64,000 bases of DNA, taken from contig JAUYTX010000013.1 in assembly GCA_030695025.1 (NCBI GenBank), positions 1 to 64,000 of the forward strand, written 5' to 3'. This document shows positions 34,828-40,932 of this stretch, piece by piece (within the stretch, counting starts at the first letter, position 1; every line of letters begins with the position of its first letter). The translations under genes and the position numbers were made by a program. Source of the DNA: Bacteroidales bacterium (lineage in GTDB: Bacteria > Bacteroidota > Bacteroidia > Bacteroidales > UBA932). Under the pieces are notes generated by a model that worked only from the letters and a program-made list of their open reading frames with translations, had not been told where the DNA came from and did not search any database.

Positions 34828-34835
34828 TAAATTTG
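34828..34835 (+). promoter_or_regulatory. -7 promoter box (TAAATTTG) upstream of the Met/Thr leader
   Basis: Exact TAnnTTTG match 46 nt before the leader ATG; no clear -33 TTG seen. Confidence 0.45.
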
Positions 34836-34881
34836 GATTTTTTAATTACAATTCATAACTTCGCCGCCGATAGATCAATAA

Positions 34882-35016
34882 ATGCTAAGAGAGAACAACA
34901 TACAACCATGTAAAGGCAGAAATAACTCTGCCCGTATCTCTTTTTCTTCCACAGGCATTACGATTTTCACATCCACAACGATGATGATGCGAATGCATCG
35001 CAAGATGCATAGCTAG
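34882..35016 (+). CDS. Candidate attenuation leader peptide, 44 aa: MLRENNIQPCKGRNNSARISFSSTGITIFTSTTMMMRMHRKMHS*
   Basis: Small ORF (below the ORF-track cutoff) before metY-metX-thrA-asd; 5 Thr in residues 24-33 and 5 Met in residues 34-42. Confidence 0.65.
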   Translation: MLRENNIQPCKGRNNSARISFSSTGITIFTSTTMMMRMHRKMHS

Positions 35017-35054
35017 TTTCGGGTTCTTACGCAGAACCATTGGGCTTTGCCCAA
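34986..35054 (+). promoter_or_regulatory. Candidate attenuator structures
   Basis: GATGC(34986-34990)/GCATC(34995-34999)/GATGC(35004-35008) mutually exclusive pairings; GGTTCT-tacgc-AGAACC (35022-35038); TTGGGC-ttt-GCCCAA (35040-35054). Confidence 0.45.
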
Positions 35055-35100
35055 AAATCCCCTTCAAGAGATTTCGTAACCCTTAAATCATCATCAATCA

Positions 35101-36420
35101 ATGAGTAAACAATATTTTGATACCTTACAGGTACATGCAGGACGTGACAGAAGCACATCTAATGGGCCCTGCGCAACCCCGATAGCACAAACATCCTCCT
35201 TTTTATTCGATAGCACCGATCATGCTGCTTCACTTTTCAATCTCTCCCATCCTGGACATATATATACCAGATTATCAAACCCTACAACAGAGGTACTGGA
35301 GAAAAGAATTGCCGCACTCGAGGGTGCAGCAGCCGCCGTAGCCGTTTCATCAGGACAGGCATCACAATTTCTGGCAATCCAGAATATTGCCTCTGCAGGC
35401 GATAATATCGTAAGTGCAACTTCGCTTTATGGTGGCACACACAATCAATTCAAAATCAGCTTTGCACGCCTTGGAATAGAGTTCAGATTTGCTCCAAATG
35501 ACAATATTGGTGAATTTGAAGCCAAAATTGATAACAAAACGAAAGCAATTTTCATTGAGACAATCGGAAATTCAGATTTTTATATTCCTGAATTTGAAGC
35601 CTTTGCATCATTAAGTAAAAAATACGACATTCCTCTGATTGTTGACAACACTTTTGGGGCTGCCGGATACCTTTTCAGACCTATTGAGTACGGCACTGCT
35701 GTAATAACTCACGCTGCTACAAAATGGATTGGCGGACACGGCACATCAATAGGCGGTGTAGTTGTCGACTGCGGAAATTTCAACTGGGCAAACGGTAAGT
35801 TTCCACAATTCACAAACCCTTCGGAATCATACCACGGACTTAGTTTCTGGGATAGCTTTGGAGCAAACTCTCCTCACGGGAACATAGCCTTTGCAGTTAA
35901 GGCACGTGCCGAAGGTCTGCGTGATTGGGGATGCACTCTAAGCCCTTTCAATTCTTTCCTGATTCAACAAGGGTGTGAAACTCTTTCCCTGAGAATGGAT
36001 AAAATTCTTGGAAATGCACTTGAGCTTGCAAGTTGGCTGGAGGCTCACCCAAAGGTAGAATCTGTAAACTATCCGGGGCTTAAAAATAATCTCAACCATG
36101 AAAGGGCAAAAAAGTATCTGAGAAACGGGTTCGGAGGAGTTCTTACATTCACCCTAAAGGCAGCTGAAAAGGGCAATGGTGGCTTGCCTGCGGGCAAGAT
36201 TCCCGATTTTGTTCACTCACTTGAACTCTTAAGCCATCTGGTAAATGTGGGAGACAATAAAACACTTATAAGCCACTCAGCTTCTACCACGCACGCACAA
36301 CTTAGCGAAAAGGAGCTTGCAGCTGCCGGAATAGGGGCAAATATGCTCAGAATATCCCTGGGAATTGAGAATATTGAGGACATTAAAGCCGATATTGAAC
36401 AGGCATTAAGGAGGGTGTAG
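35101..36420 (+). CDS. metY: O-acetylhomoserine aminocarboxypropyltransferase/cysteine synthase family protein
   Basis: PLP Cys/Met metabolism enzyme: [38 protein letters not shown]. Confidence 0.93.
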
Positions 36421-36423
36421 CTT

Positions 36424-37449
36424 ATGCAGAGAAAAGTTTATAAACACGCATCACCCTTTGTGCTCGAGAGCAATGCAACCCTTGATTCAATTGAAATTTG
36501 TTATCACCAAAGCGGCACATACATTCCAGGCAAGAGGGTAATATGGATATGTCACGCTCTTACTGCCAACTCAAATCCCCAAGAGTGGTGGAGCGGACTT
36601 GTTGGCCCGGGCAAACTCTTTGACCCCGAAAAATATCATGTTATCTGCGCCAATATGTTGGGTTCATGTTATGGCAGCACAGGCCCGGCCTCAAAAGGAG
36701 TTAACGGTAAACCTCATTTACTGGACTTTCCGGATGTTACAGTGCGTGACACTGTTGCTGCCCACAACCTGCTAAGAGAGCATCTTGGAATTGAGCAAAT
36801 TGAACTTATTATCGGAGGTTCAATAGGAGGATTTCAGGCACTTGAGTGGAGTATAATGTATCCGAAAGTGGTTAAGAACCTGGTCCTGATAGGCTGTAAT
36901 GCGGCAGTATCGCCCTGGGGAGCAGCATTTAACGAATCTCAGAGAATGGCACTTCTGGCAGACCCCTCATTCAGAGAGCAGAGAGATATAAACGGAGGCA
37001 AAGCCGGGCTTGAGACGGCCAGATCAATCGCTCTTTTATCGTATAGATCCTATGAGGGATACGGAAAAAGTCAGGGAGAGGATAACAACAATTTTATCTT
37101 CGCTTCAAAGGCGTGCAGCTACCAAAGACATCAGGGTGAAAAGCTATCAAAAAGATTTGATGCATACTCATATTACACACTGACAAAATCTGTTGACAGT
37201 CACAATGTTGCAAGAGAAAGAGGGAGCATAGAGAGGGCACTTTTGTCAGTTGAGGCCTCTACACTTGTAATAGGCATTGATACAGATAACCTGTTTCCAT
37301 TGGAGGAGCAGATATTTTTAAGTCGAAAAATTAAGGGGGCTAGGCTGGCTATTATAAAATCACTGTATGGCCATGATGGATTTCTGCTCGAATGGGAGCA
37401 GACTGAAAGTATTATCAGGAACAACTTTCAACTTTTTAACAATAACTAA
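36424..37449 (+). CDS. metX: Homoserine O-acetyltransferase
   Basis: ICHALTANSNPQEWWSGLVGPGK, GGSIGGFQALEWSIMYP, LYGHDGFLLE. Confidence 0.93.
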   Translation: MQRKVYKHASPFVLESNATLDSIEICYHQSGTYIPGKRVIWICHALTANSNPQEWWSGLVGPGKLFDPEKYHVICANMLGSCYGSTGPASKGVNGKPHLLDFPDVTVRDTVAAHNLLREHLGIEQIELIIGGSIGGFQALEWSIMYPKVVKNLVLIGCNAAVSPWGAAFNESQRMALLADPSFREQRDINGGKAGLETARSIALLSYRSYEGYGKSQGEDNNNFIFASKACSYQRHQGEKLSKRFDAYSYYTLTKSVDSHNVARERGSIERALLSVEASTLVIGIDTDNLFPLEEQIFLSRKIKGARLAIIKSLYGHDGFLLEWEQTESIIRNNFQLFNNN

Positions 37450-37451
37450 TT

Positions 37452-39890
37452 ATGCAAGTACTAAAATTCGGCGGGAGCTCGGTTGCAAATGCAGCCAACA
37501 TTTCTAAGGTCGCCTCCATAGTAGCGGAGGCAGTGAAAAGAGACAGAACAATTCTGGTTGCCTCGGCAATCGGAGGTTGTACAGATAAGCTCATCCTGAC
37601 GGGAAAACTTGCATCCTCCAAGGATACCGAATACAAAGAGATAATTACAAATTTGGAGAGAAGACATAAAGAGATAACCGAGCAGCTAATTCCACAAGGC
37701 TTTAGAGAGCCCGTTGAAAAAAGGTGCTCAGAGCTGTTTGTGAAGCTCAGGGAGATCTGCGAAGGAATTTCATTAGTGGGAGAGCTTACTCCGGCATCTT
37801 CAGATGTTGTGGTAAGTTTCGGAGAGTTGCTCTCAACATCAATTATCTCTGCAAAACTGACATCAATGGGCATAAACAACGTTTGGACAGATGCCCGCAA
37901 CTTTATAAAAACAACCCGGGTAAACTCGGCGAACATAGTAGATACCAATGAAACATACAAAAGAATGGGCGAGTACCTGCAGGCAAACGGAACAAGGTTG
38001 TACGTTGTCCCGGGATTTATTGCCAGCGACAATGAAGAGCGAACAACCACCCTTGGCAGGGGTGGGTCAGATTACACTGCCTCGCTCTTTGCAGCAGGAA
38101 CAGGAGCAAGAGTTCTTGAAATCTGGACAGATGTAAGCGGAATGATGACTGCCGACCCCAGAATTGTACCTGAGGCCCGCACCATTGACCATATCTCGTA
38201 CAAAGAGGCGCTTGAGCTTTCGCACTTTGGGGCAAAAGTTGTTTACCCTCCTACCATTCAGCCCGTTGTAAGAAAAGCAATTCCCATAATTGTCAAAAAC
38301 ACCTTTGACCCAAAGGGGTCATCAACAATAATTGAGAGATATCCACCCGAAAACAAGAGCAAAATTCGAGGAATATCAAGCAGCAACCGTATAGCACTAC
38401 TCTCACTTGAGGGGAGTGGAATGGTTGGCATTCCGGGTTACTCGGGAAGATTCTTTACAGCCCTTGCCAACGCCTCGATAAATGTAATTCTCATAACACA
38501 AGCCTCTTCGCTTCACACAATGTGCGTTGCTGTTGAGGAGGCAGATGCAGTAAGAGCAGGGTTAGCGGTAGATGAGGCATTTGCCTATGAAATAAGCATA
38601 AACAAGGTGAATAAAGTGGTTGTAGAAAAGGGCTTTTCGATTGTCACTCTTGTTGGAGATGATATGAAAAACCAATCCGGCACCGGGGGCAGAATGTTTG
38701 ACGCTCTGGGCAGGGCAGGAATAAACCTCAGGGCAATAGCACAAGGCTCTTCGGAGAGAAACATCTCAACCATAATTGCAGCGGCGGATACCAATAACGC
38801 AATTAAGGAGATTCATGATGAATTTTTCGGAACCAGAAAGAGGAGAATCAACCTCTTCATTGCGGGGTTCGGGAATGTAGGCAAAGAACTTGTTTCGCTC
38901 ATAGGCCAACAGGTGAACGAACTATATGCATCAAAAAACGTAAGTGTGGTAATCACCGGAATTTGCACAAGCAAGATGATGGTGGTGAGAAAAGAGGGCA
39001 TTAACCCGGCCGAAGCAGAGCAGGCTCTGCAAGAGGGGGAGAGAGCCGACATCAACTCATTTATTCGTCAAGCCTCCTTTGCAGCTCCACGGAATGCAGT
39101 CTTTGCCGACTGTACAGCCGACCCTTCGGTAGCTTCACTTTACGGTGAAATCTTTTTCAAAGGGATTTCAGTTGTTACCTGCAACAAAATTGCTTTGGCC
39201 TCCGAAACCGATAATTACCAATCTCTTAAAAGGGGAACATACGAAAACGGAGTTAAACTATTCTATGAAACTACGGCAGGAGCTGCCCTCCCTCTATTAT
39301 CAACAATAGAACGCCTTAAGGAGAGCGGCGAGAAGATAATCTCACTGGAAGCAATCCTTTCGGGAACACTCAACTACCTCTTTAGCAACTACGATGGGTC
39401 AAAAACCTTTGCAACCCTCATAAAAGAGGCAAAAGAGGCCGGATACACCGAACCTGATCCTAGAACTGACCTTTCTGGAGGTGATGTTGTAAGAAAGTGC
39501 ACAATAATTGCCAGAGAGTGCGGGTTTCAGCTTGAGCAGAGCAATGTTAAGACAGAGCCTGCAATTGAGACCTCACTAATGTCAGGCAGCATTGAAGAGT
39601 TCTACAAAAAAGTTGAGAAGGCAGAGAAGAGCATAAGTGAGAAGTTTGCAGAGGCTGCCCAAAAGGGAGAGAGGCTGAAATACATTGCCTCTATTAAAGA
39701 TGGAGAGTATTCGGTTGGGATAAAAAGCGTTGGCCCTGAACACCCGCTCTATAACATCAACGGAACAAATAACTCTCTAATGATCAAGACATCTAACTAC
39801 CCCGATGGAGTTGTTATAACCGGAGCCGGAGCAGGCGCAAGAGTAACCGCCGGGGGCGTATTGAACGATATTTTAAGAGCAGCAATTTAA
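37452..39890 (+). CDS. thrA: Bifunctional aspartate kinase/homoserine dehydrogenase
   Basis: KFGGSSVANA, LGRGGSDYTASL, ACT domains, C-terminal HSD (GFGNVGKELV, LSGTLNYLFSNYD). Confidence 0.96.
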   Translation: MQVLKFGGSSVANAANISKVASIVAEAVKRDRTILVASAIGGCTDKLILTGKLASSKDTEYKEIITNLERRHKEITEQLIPQGFREPVEKRCSELFVKLREICEGISLVGELTPASSDVVVSFGELLSTSIISAKLTSMGINNVWTDARNFIKTTRVNSANIVDTNETYKRMGEYLQANGTRLYVVPGFIASDNEERTTTLGRGGSDYTASLFAAGTGARVLEIWTDVSGMMTADPRIVPEARTIDHISYKEALELSHFGAKVVYPPTIQPVVRKAIPIIVKNTFDPKGSSTIIERYPPENKSKIRGISSSNRIALLSLEGSGMVGIPGYSGRFFTALANASINVILITQASSLHTMCVAVEEADAVRAGLAVDEAFAYEISINKVNKVVVEKGFSIVTLVGDDMKNQSGTGGRMFDALGRAGINLRAIAQGSSERNISTIIAAADTNNAIKEIHDEFFGTRKRRINLFIAGFGNVGKELVSLIGQQVNELYASKNVSVVITGICTSKMMVVRKEGINPAEAEQALQEGERADINSFIRQASFAAPRNAVFADCTADPSVASLYGEIFFKGISVVTCNKIALASETDNYQSLKRGTYENGVKLFYETTAGAALPLLSTIERLKESGEKIISLEAILSGTLNYLFSNYDGSKTFATLIKEAKEAGYTEPDPRTDLSGGDVVRKCTIIARECGFQLEQSNVKTEPAIETSLMSGSIEEFYKKVEKAEKSISEKFAEAAQKGERLKYIASIKDGEYSVGIKSVGPEHPLYNINGTNNSLMIKTSNYPDGVVITGAGAGARVTAGGVLNDILRAAI

Positions 39891-39915: not shown

Positions 39916-40932
39916 ATGAAAATAGCAGTCGTAGGAGCTACCGGCCTGGTAGGAACTAAAATGCTGGAGGTTCTGGCAGAGAGAGACTTTCCCGTAACCG
40001 AACTCATTCCCGTTGCATCTGAAAGGTCAGCAGGCAGGAGTATATATTTCAAGGGAAAGGAGTACAAGGTTGTAACACCAAAAGAGGCAATTGCAATGAG
40101 ACCCCATATTGCCCTCTTCTCGGCAGGTGCCGGCACCTCAGGAGAGTGGGCACCCAAATTTGCAGCTGCCGGTTGCCGGGTTGTTGACAACTCATCCCGG
40201 TGGAGAATGGAGCAAGGGATTAAGTTAATTGTCCCCGAAGTAAATGGCAACACACTCATAAAGAGCGATATGATAATTGCCAACCCCAACTGTTCTACCA
40301 TTCAAATGGTGGTAGCACTCAATCTTTTACATGCAAATTTCAAGCTCAGGAGAATTGTTGTTTCAACATACCAATCTGTAACAGGAAGCGGCATCAAAGG
40401 CATTAATCAACTCACCAACGAGCGGGAAGCCAATCTTCAGGCAAACACACCAGGGGAGACACCTTCATCTGCCTACCCGTACCAATCTGCATACCCCTAT
40501 CAGATAGACATGAACCTCATCCCCCAGATTGATACCTTTCTCGATAACGGATACACAAAAGAGGAGATGAAGATGGTGAATGAGACCAAGAAGATAATGG
40601 GCGATGAATCAATTGCTGTTAGTGCAACAACGGTAAGGGTTCCGGTGGTTGGCGGCCACTCCGAAAGCGTGAATGCAGAGTTTGAAACCAGTTTTACCAT
40701 GGAGCAGGTCAACAAAATTCTCAGGGAATCTCCGGGTGTAATTCTCTCAGATCATAATGAAGAACCTCCCTACCCTATGCCTCTTTTTGCACAAAACAGA
40801 GACGAGGTTTTCGTAGGAAGGGTCAGAAGAGACCTCTCTTGTGAAAATGCTATAAATATGTGGGTTGTCTCAGACAATCTTCGCAAGGGAGCAGCCACTA
40901 ATGCTGTGCAGATTGCAGAACTTTTCCTGTAA
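39916..40932 (+). CDS. asd: Aspartate-semialdehyde dehydrogenase
   Basis: VVGATGLVGTKMLEVL, ANPNCSTIQMVVAL, VGRVRRDLS. Confidence 0.96.
   Translation: MKIAVVGATGLVGTKMLEVLAERDFPVTELIPVASERSAGRSIYFKGKEYKVVTPKEAIAMRPHIALFSAGAGTSGEWAPKFAAAGCRVVDNSSRWRMEQGIKLIVPEVNGNTLIKSDMIIANPNCSTIQMVVALNLLHANFKLRRIVVSTYQSVTGSGIKGINQLTNEREANLQANTPGETPSSAYPYQSAYPYQIDMNLIPQIDTFLDNGYTKEEMKMVNETKKIMGDESIAVSATTVRVPVVGGHSESVNAEFETSFTMEQVNKILRESPGVILSDHNEEPPYPMPLFAQNRDEVFVGRVRRDLSCENAINMWVVSDNLRKGAATNAVQIAELFL

Follow-up and report, generated by a model that had tools for sequence, protein, structure and literature searches.

A 44-codon reading frame with a Met-rich C-terminus, not annotated as a gene, was found at 34882..35016 (+ strand) upstream of the genes metY-metX-thrA-asd of a Bacteroidales bacterium, in the stretch of 64,000 nucleotides analysed here (the window). 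This leader is probably a ribosome-mediated, Met-responsive attenuator of the four genes. In our best reading, attenuation would act on translation in the genus of the window, and some relatives would use it on transcription. Comparison with homologues in 10 genera shows a maintained frame, an enrichment of Met codons, a covarying hairpin (H1) at the end of the frame, a site before metY or metX and, in most of the genus, a pairing (P0) between Met codons and the metY start region.

Leader reading frame, promoter and operon

Four genes follow the leader on the same strand: metY for an O-acetylhomoserine aminocarboxypropyltransferase (O-acetylhomoserine sulfhydrylase; 35101..36420, TIGR01326 above cut-off), a metX-like gene for a homoserine O-acetyltransferase (36424..37449, TIGR01392 with E 4e-93, below the curated cut-off), thrA for a bifunctional aspartokinase/homoserine dehydrogenase (I) (37452..39890, NF006959 above cut-off) and asd for an aspartate-semialdehyde dehydrogenase (39916..40932, NF011456 above cut-off). 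These NCBIfam assignments confirmed the identities given in a preliminary description of this DNA. The gaps metY-metX-thrA-asd are short (3, 2 and 25 nt), thus a single operon is likely. The leader reads MLRENNIQPCKGRNNSARISFSSTGITIFTSTTMMMRMHRKMHS* and stops 84 nt 5' of the metY ATG (35101); on re-reading, the coordinates, the sequence, this distance and the residue counts of the preliminary description were all reproduced. Residues 24-33 contain five Thr and two Ile (Thr/Ile codon block, 34951..34980, +), residues 34-42 contain five Met, including the codon run ATGATGATG (34981..34989, +), the likely control codons. Five Met in nine residues were unique to the leader among the 530 small ATG ORFs (20-70 amino acids) of the window, and 20,000 nucleotide shuffles of its sequence never produced them. 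Five Thr in ten residues were reached by 1.2 % of the shuffles and seven Thr plus Ile in ten by 0.3 %; the Thr cluster is less striking than the Met cluster. The leader ORF is real and no chance codon run. The leader region folded better than each of 200 dinucleotide shuffles (z -3.9).

The ORF starts 18 nt past a candidate promoter of the Bacteroidota type. The candidate -33 element, TTTG (34832..34835, +), was read directly from the DNA, and TTTG(G) about 20 nt 5' of the -7 element was also present in most relatives. The candidate -7 element TAACTTCG (34856..34863, +) has one mismatch to the consensus TAnnTTTG; L003 and L004 carry TAACTTTG. In 60 of 70 homologues a TAnnTTTG element was located 4-24 nt upstream of the start codon, thus the leader ORF begins near the expected transcript start.

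Distribution among relatives

The window's genus comprised 24 other genomes, and a DNA search of 40 relatives recovered the leader in 22 of them; the nearest named relatives were MAGs labelled Rikenellaceae/Bacteroidales. The exact core, GCGAATGCATCGN(2-3)AGATGC, occurred in 69 of 300 family genomes and in 10 of 26 genera, with 0 matches for the reversed control. Across 396 genomes of the class it had no match beyond the window's own genome, which makes it a family-level feature. Because this pattern fixes the core sequence, two further checks were made, a peptide-level pattern and a sample of 40 genomes without the exact core that were reached via their metX gene. About 42 of 53 matches to the peptide-level pattern MRMHR-stop shared their codons apart from the third base of the last Arg, which varied. 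A clear leader variant was present in 14 of the 40 genomes of the metX-based sample; in the others, over half of the sample, the leader was degenerate or none was recognisable, and in some of these genomes metX followed directly after the promoter. The metX match in five genomes of one genus (G449, G569, G560, G637, G611) reads through one in-frame TGA, perhaps the natural terminus of a shorter protein, perhaps a true stop within the frame. The genomes of the whole-genome searches were species representatives, and related sequences are not independent, so that the p-values are too small.

In every examined leader copy whose downstream gene lay within reach, that gene was metY or metX. The frame of the ORF is kept among relatives between the promoter and the first structural gene; in 42 of 60 the +2 frame is open too, and the promoter spacing together with the constant 3' end is stronger support for the leader ORF than the openness of the frame. 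The proposal of an unannotated regulatory leader peptide is supported, as is its conservation in related Bacteroidales. The homologous ORFs have a common plan: Ile near the start, a middle part that varies, a stretch of Met-rich codons, and the end at, or just past, hairpin H1. The early Ile codon, often ATA, lies in codons 5-9 of most family leaders (...FIS, ...HII, ...LIQ); in genus g234 these codons are paired to the region of the metX start codon.

Methionine, threonine and isoleucine codons

Met accounted for 12-21 % of the leader residues in most genera compared with a background of 2.3 %, and still for 13-15 % in the larger genera after exclusion of the start and core Met. The enrichment was not clear in g224, g232 and g235, with one or two sequences each. 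In genus g216 the Met codons do not keep fixed positions (e.g. SMGMDMMGIVMMRMHR), an argument that selection acts on the codons as such and not only via RNA pairing. Judged from this codon content, Met is the conserved putative signal of the leader.

The preliminary description had proposed, as probable, a sensor for Thr, Ile and Met together. The operon contains thrA and also makes homoserine for threonine, the window leader has five Thr in ten residues, and the Thr/Ile block is intact in the window's own clade (L001-L004) despite changed codons 5' of it. The distant leader L173, with 11 Thr and 7 Ile among 47 residues, would allow for a lineage-specific Thr input. Against a background of 5.4 %, however, Thr made up 7.3 % of the residues in the genus of the window and 1-3 % in the other larger genera, and Ile was near background in most genera. 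Conserved Thr/Ile control codons of the thrL type were confined to the clade of the window and a few further lineages; the majority of the genus leaders (e.g. MNRENLIQFQPDSNSFAAFSLMFSSMSMMMMRMHRKMLA, MKRETFISMMMMMRMHRKMLA) and most of the remaining genera have no such block. Small upstream ORFs with runs of both Thr and Met had been expected in related Bacteroidales: the ORF and the Met enrichment were recovered, the Thr/Ile part was not in most leaders. Joint sensing of the three amino acids is therefore unlikely, and of the original proposal we retain Met as the sensed residue.

Hairpin H1 at the end of the reading frame

The most conserved part of the leader is H1, a near-invariant CGA-AUG (Arg-Met; 34990..34995, +) followed by a stem at the ORF end. 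In the window the hairpin is AUGCAUC-GCAA-GAUGCAU (34993..35010, +), its core stem formed by 34995-34999 with 35004-35008. In most genera the last Arg codon and the stop codon sit inside the stem GCAUC/GAUGC; the window's genus has a loop shorter by one base and a frame that continues for four more residues. Over 24 distinct sequences 98.3 % of the cells were paired and four of the five pairs had changed on both sides. Double-changed cells numbered 19 versus 4.6 in shuffles, and neither this count nor the covariation score was reached by any shuffle, in a counting that favours the structure somewhat, as stems were placed by hand and loops trimmed to four bases (the MAFFT core alignment left the loops ungapped). 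The stem was kept through the variants GCAAC/GUUGC, GCGCC/GGCGC and GCGUC/GAUGC while the peptide changed. On the contig with the GCGCC/GGCGC variant, Acido-Lenti-1 RNA (RF01687) matched just above threshold on the minus strand (L211:402-446).

Leaders from other Bacteroidales families (L042, L050, L054, L068, L072, L253) also stand upstream of metY; in them CGAAUG leads into GUGCU(G)/(C)AGCAC or a closely similar stem, and the codons are Met-Cys or Met-Cys-Cys. A pattern for the RMCC form gave two matches over 296 genomes of the order. One was 192 nt 5' of a MetY-like gene (L253), the other sits in apparent coding sequence and was taken as chance.

The near-constant RMHR, in most genera the end of the peptide, could also be seen as a nascent-peptide arrest sequence that stalls the ribosome on Met or SAM. 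A C-terminal peptide conserved independently of the RNA did not emerge from the leader comparison: the residues vary under a retained hairpin, with QMHR (L229), RMQR (L245), RMRR (L211), RMRL (L216), RMHL (L228, L242) and RMRA (L246), other families have RMCC and RMC instead, and the peptide of the window's genus extends four residues past RMHR. The first Arg is almost always encoded by CGA and the His always by CAT, a constraint on the nucleotide level. The change of residues under a covarying stem argues against an arrest peptide, which we regard as improbable. Still less credit is given to a DNA operator, in which a transcription factor would bind the palindrome ATGCATC-GATGCAT. Such a site, near-palindromic and highly conserved upstream of methionine genes, could equally produce symmetrical changes. 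The palindrome, however, is positioned downstream of the promoter and in frame at the ORF end, its loop of 4 to 8 nt usually contains the stop codon, and the stem can be wholly replaced (GUGCUG/CAGCAC) while CGAAUG is retained; an operator is thus highly improbable. A fixed CGA codon next to a near-fixed stem is conservation beyond the needs of a simple attenuator. Possible reasons are that CGA is decoded slowly, that the ribosome pauses at H1 or that a protein binds H1.

Pairing with the metY start region

The 5' arm of P0, GAUGAUGAU (34980..34988, +), pairs with the 3' arm AUCAUCAUC (35087..35095, +), which ends 5 nt before the metY start codon. Both arms have changed together in L018 (GAUGAUAAU/AUUAUCAUC) and L022 (GGUUAUG/CAUAACC). 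Between the arms lie the hairpins H2, GGUUCU-UACGC-AGAACC (35022..35038, +), and H3, UUGGGC-UUU-GCCCAA (35040..35054, +), both covarying within the genus, H3 without a U-run on its 3' side. In the predicted fold of the window P0 closes a junction with H1, H2 and H3. H2, H3 and P0 were annotated per sequence (through L019), as a single genus alignment misregistered H3 and the start region. The own-pair duplex of P0 was better than shuffled start regions in 13 of 23 genus leaders (p about 0.05 or below), with p = 0.06 in the window itself; P0 was weak or absent in L007-L009 and L023. A general pairing of leaders with start sites was tested across the family and not supported; outside the genus P0-like pairing was present only in g234, there between leader codons and the metX start, and in L171. 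The preliminary description had recognised the leader ORF, which stands, and had missed both the covarying H1 and the pairing of Met codons with the metY start.

Ribosome positions were modelled with a 30-nt footprint placed codon by codon and constrained folding. The predicted accessibility of the metY start rises with the P-site at -8 to +3 codons around CGA and is at baseline with the ribosome at the stop codon; the computed changes are modest, about +0.1. Alternative structures that depend on ribosome position were obtained in silico for the window's genus and partly for other genera, mainly g234. The pairing of Met codons with the metY start region indicates a translational rather than a thrL-type transcriptional attenuation in the genus.

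Known RNA elements, terminators and outputs of relatives

Rfam scanning of the leader region yielded no family at gathering score, and a permissive scan one chance-level match. No covariance-model match to SAM riboswitches reached the gathering score at the site, in agreement with the preliminary description, and the Bacteroid-trp leader (RF01692) was matched neither at the site nor in the searched genomes of the genus. If the leader were a riboswitch, H1, H2, H3 and P0 would make up a four-way junction with SAM or some other molecule as its ligand, and the ORF would be incidental. The four elements would form such a junction in the window's genus, where H2 and H3 covary. Against this stand the missing Rfam match at the leader and the loss of H2, H3 and P0 outside the genus with retention of the Met codons and H1. 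Moreover, in L246 (positions 551-656, genome G442) a genuine SAM-I riboswitch (RF00162, 63.9 bits) directly precedes a Met leader that has a hairpin of its own and is followed by metY, thus the two elements are separate. We hold a ligand-binding junction to be as improbable as an arrest peptide and return to the Met-responsive attenuator. L246 is possibly a tandem of SAM sensing and Met-tRNA sensing.

No intrinsic terminator was detected between leader and first gene in the leaders of the window's genus. Of the thrL-like attenuation suggested earlier, the ribosome-mediated principle is kept and the transcriptional form is abandoned for this genus. Intrinsic terminators were present between Met leader and metY in two g216 relatives (L165, L167), and also in L171. 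Together with the SAM-I riboswitch before the L246 leader they suggest that the outputs differ by lineage. MAGs labelled Prevotellaceae (L043, L045, L048, L049, L070) have different leaders 5' of metY, several of them rich in Met/Cys (e.g. ...MCMCFCICRTVSLLL), and in L045, L048, L049 and L070 a strong intrinsic terminator (AATCCGGC...GCCGGATTTTT) is situated 3' of the leader. By their terminators these leaders represent a separate type of putative transcriptional attenuator.

Proposed mechanism

The transcript would begin just 5' of the leader ORF, and a ribosome would translate the leader at once. With ample Met-tRNA it would reach the stop codon and depart; GAUGAUGAU could then pair with AUCAUCAUC before the metY start and hold down metY translation. 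With Met-tRNA in short supply, a ribosome stalled on the Met codons would cover the 5' arm of P0 and leave the metY start site open. Stalling, the response to Met and the direction of control are inferred. H1, with the ORF end inside, would serve as conserved gauge of the ribosome position, the role that a 1:2 hairpin has in classical attenuators. Some relatives carry an intrinsic terminator behind this head in place of the start-site pairing. Met limitation also lowers initiation everywhere in the cell, which complicates any sensor based on Met codons.

Taken further, the leaders might form a new class of Bacteroidales attenuators that gauges Met via elongator Met codons, with the CGA-AUG and stop-in-loop hairpin as fixed position gauge, with lineage-specific outputs (start-site sequestration, intrinsic terminator, preceding SAM riboswitch) and with the Met-Cys-Cys form as joint sensor of Met and Cys. 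We offer this wider reading tentatively and with more doubt than belief.

Comparison with known systems

Known controls of bacterial methionine genes include repressors, SAM riboswitches and T-boxes, and attenuators are known that read the codons of many other amino acids. SAM riboswitches and Met T-boxes, in which the RNA directly binds SAM or tRNA, share with the leader the RNA control of methionine genes; neither matched at the site. For attenuation by Met codons we found no published example in the open-licence literature, nor was a Met-codon leader or a methionine leader of Bacteroidetes found there, which is weak evidence of absence. A comparative account of methionine regulation in Proteobacteria (PMC4239095) covers regulators, riboswitches and the metX/metZ RNA element and reports no Met-codon leader. 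The metXZ element of beta-proteobacteria likewise is an RNA element upstream of metX or metZ; six conserved regions, a proposed pseudoknot and a terminator, and no leader peptide, are described for it (PMC4239095). A Met-codon device is not obvious a priori because Met shortage also starves initiation. If the proposed reading is true, it would add a missing case to attenuation and reveal a control element of Bacteroidales methionine genes that annotation has overlooked, with neither an Rfam family nor an NCBIfam protein family. It would also offer a small, well-conserved module for the study of one ribosome-sensing head joined to different outputs.

The leaders thrL and trpL of E. coli and similar ones act on transcription through an intrinsic terminator. 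The leader described here resembles them in its control codons for an end product and in a hairpin around the end of the leader ORF; unlike in them, no terminator was found in the leaders of the window's genus, though one is present in each of two g216 relatives. Within the Bacteroidota, the Bacteroid-trp leader (RF01692, PMC2864571) is a structured leader RNA with Trp codons, similar in the use of end-product codons and different in sequence and structure. Translational attenuation in Bacteroides is represented by tetQ of CTnDOT (Wang et al. 2005, as cited in PMC5418344), which is reported to respond to tetracycline and not to an amino acid. Translation attenuation has further been described for the polycysteine leaderless uORFs of mycobacteria (Canestrari et al. 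2020, as cited in PMC13236596). As presented there, these uORFs concern Cys in actinobacteria, whereas the leader concerns Met in Bacteroidales. To our knowledge, a CGA-AUG hairpin with the stop codon in its loop does not belong to the mycobacterial system. Common to both, as far as the citing paper describes the uORFs, is a short ORF rich in the end product, at or near the 5' end of the transcript and before biosynthesis genes.
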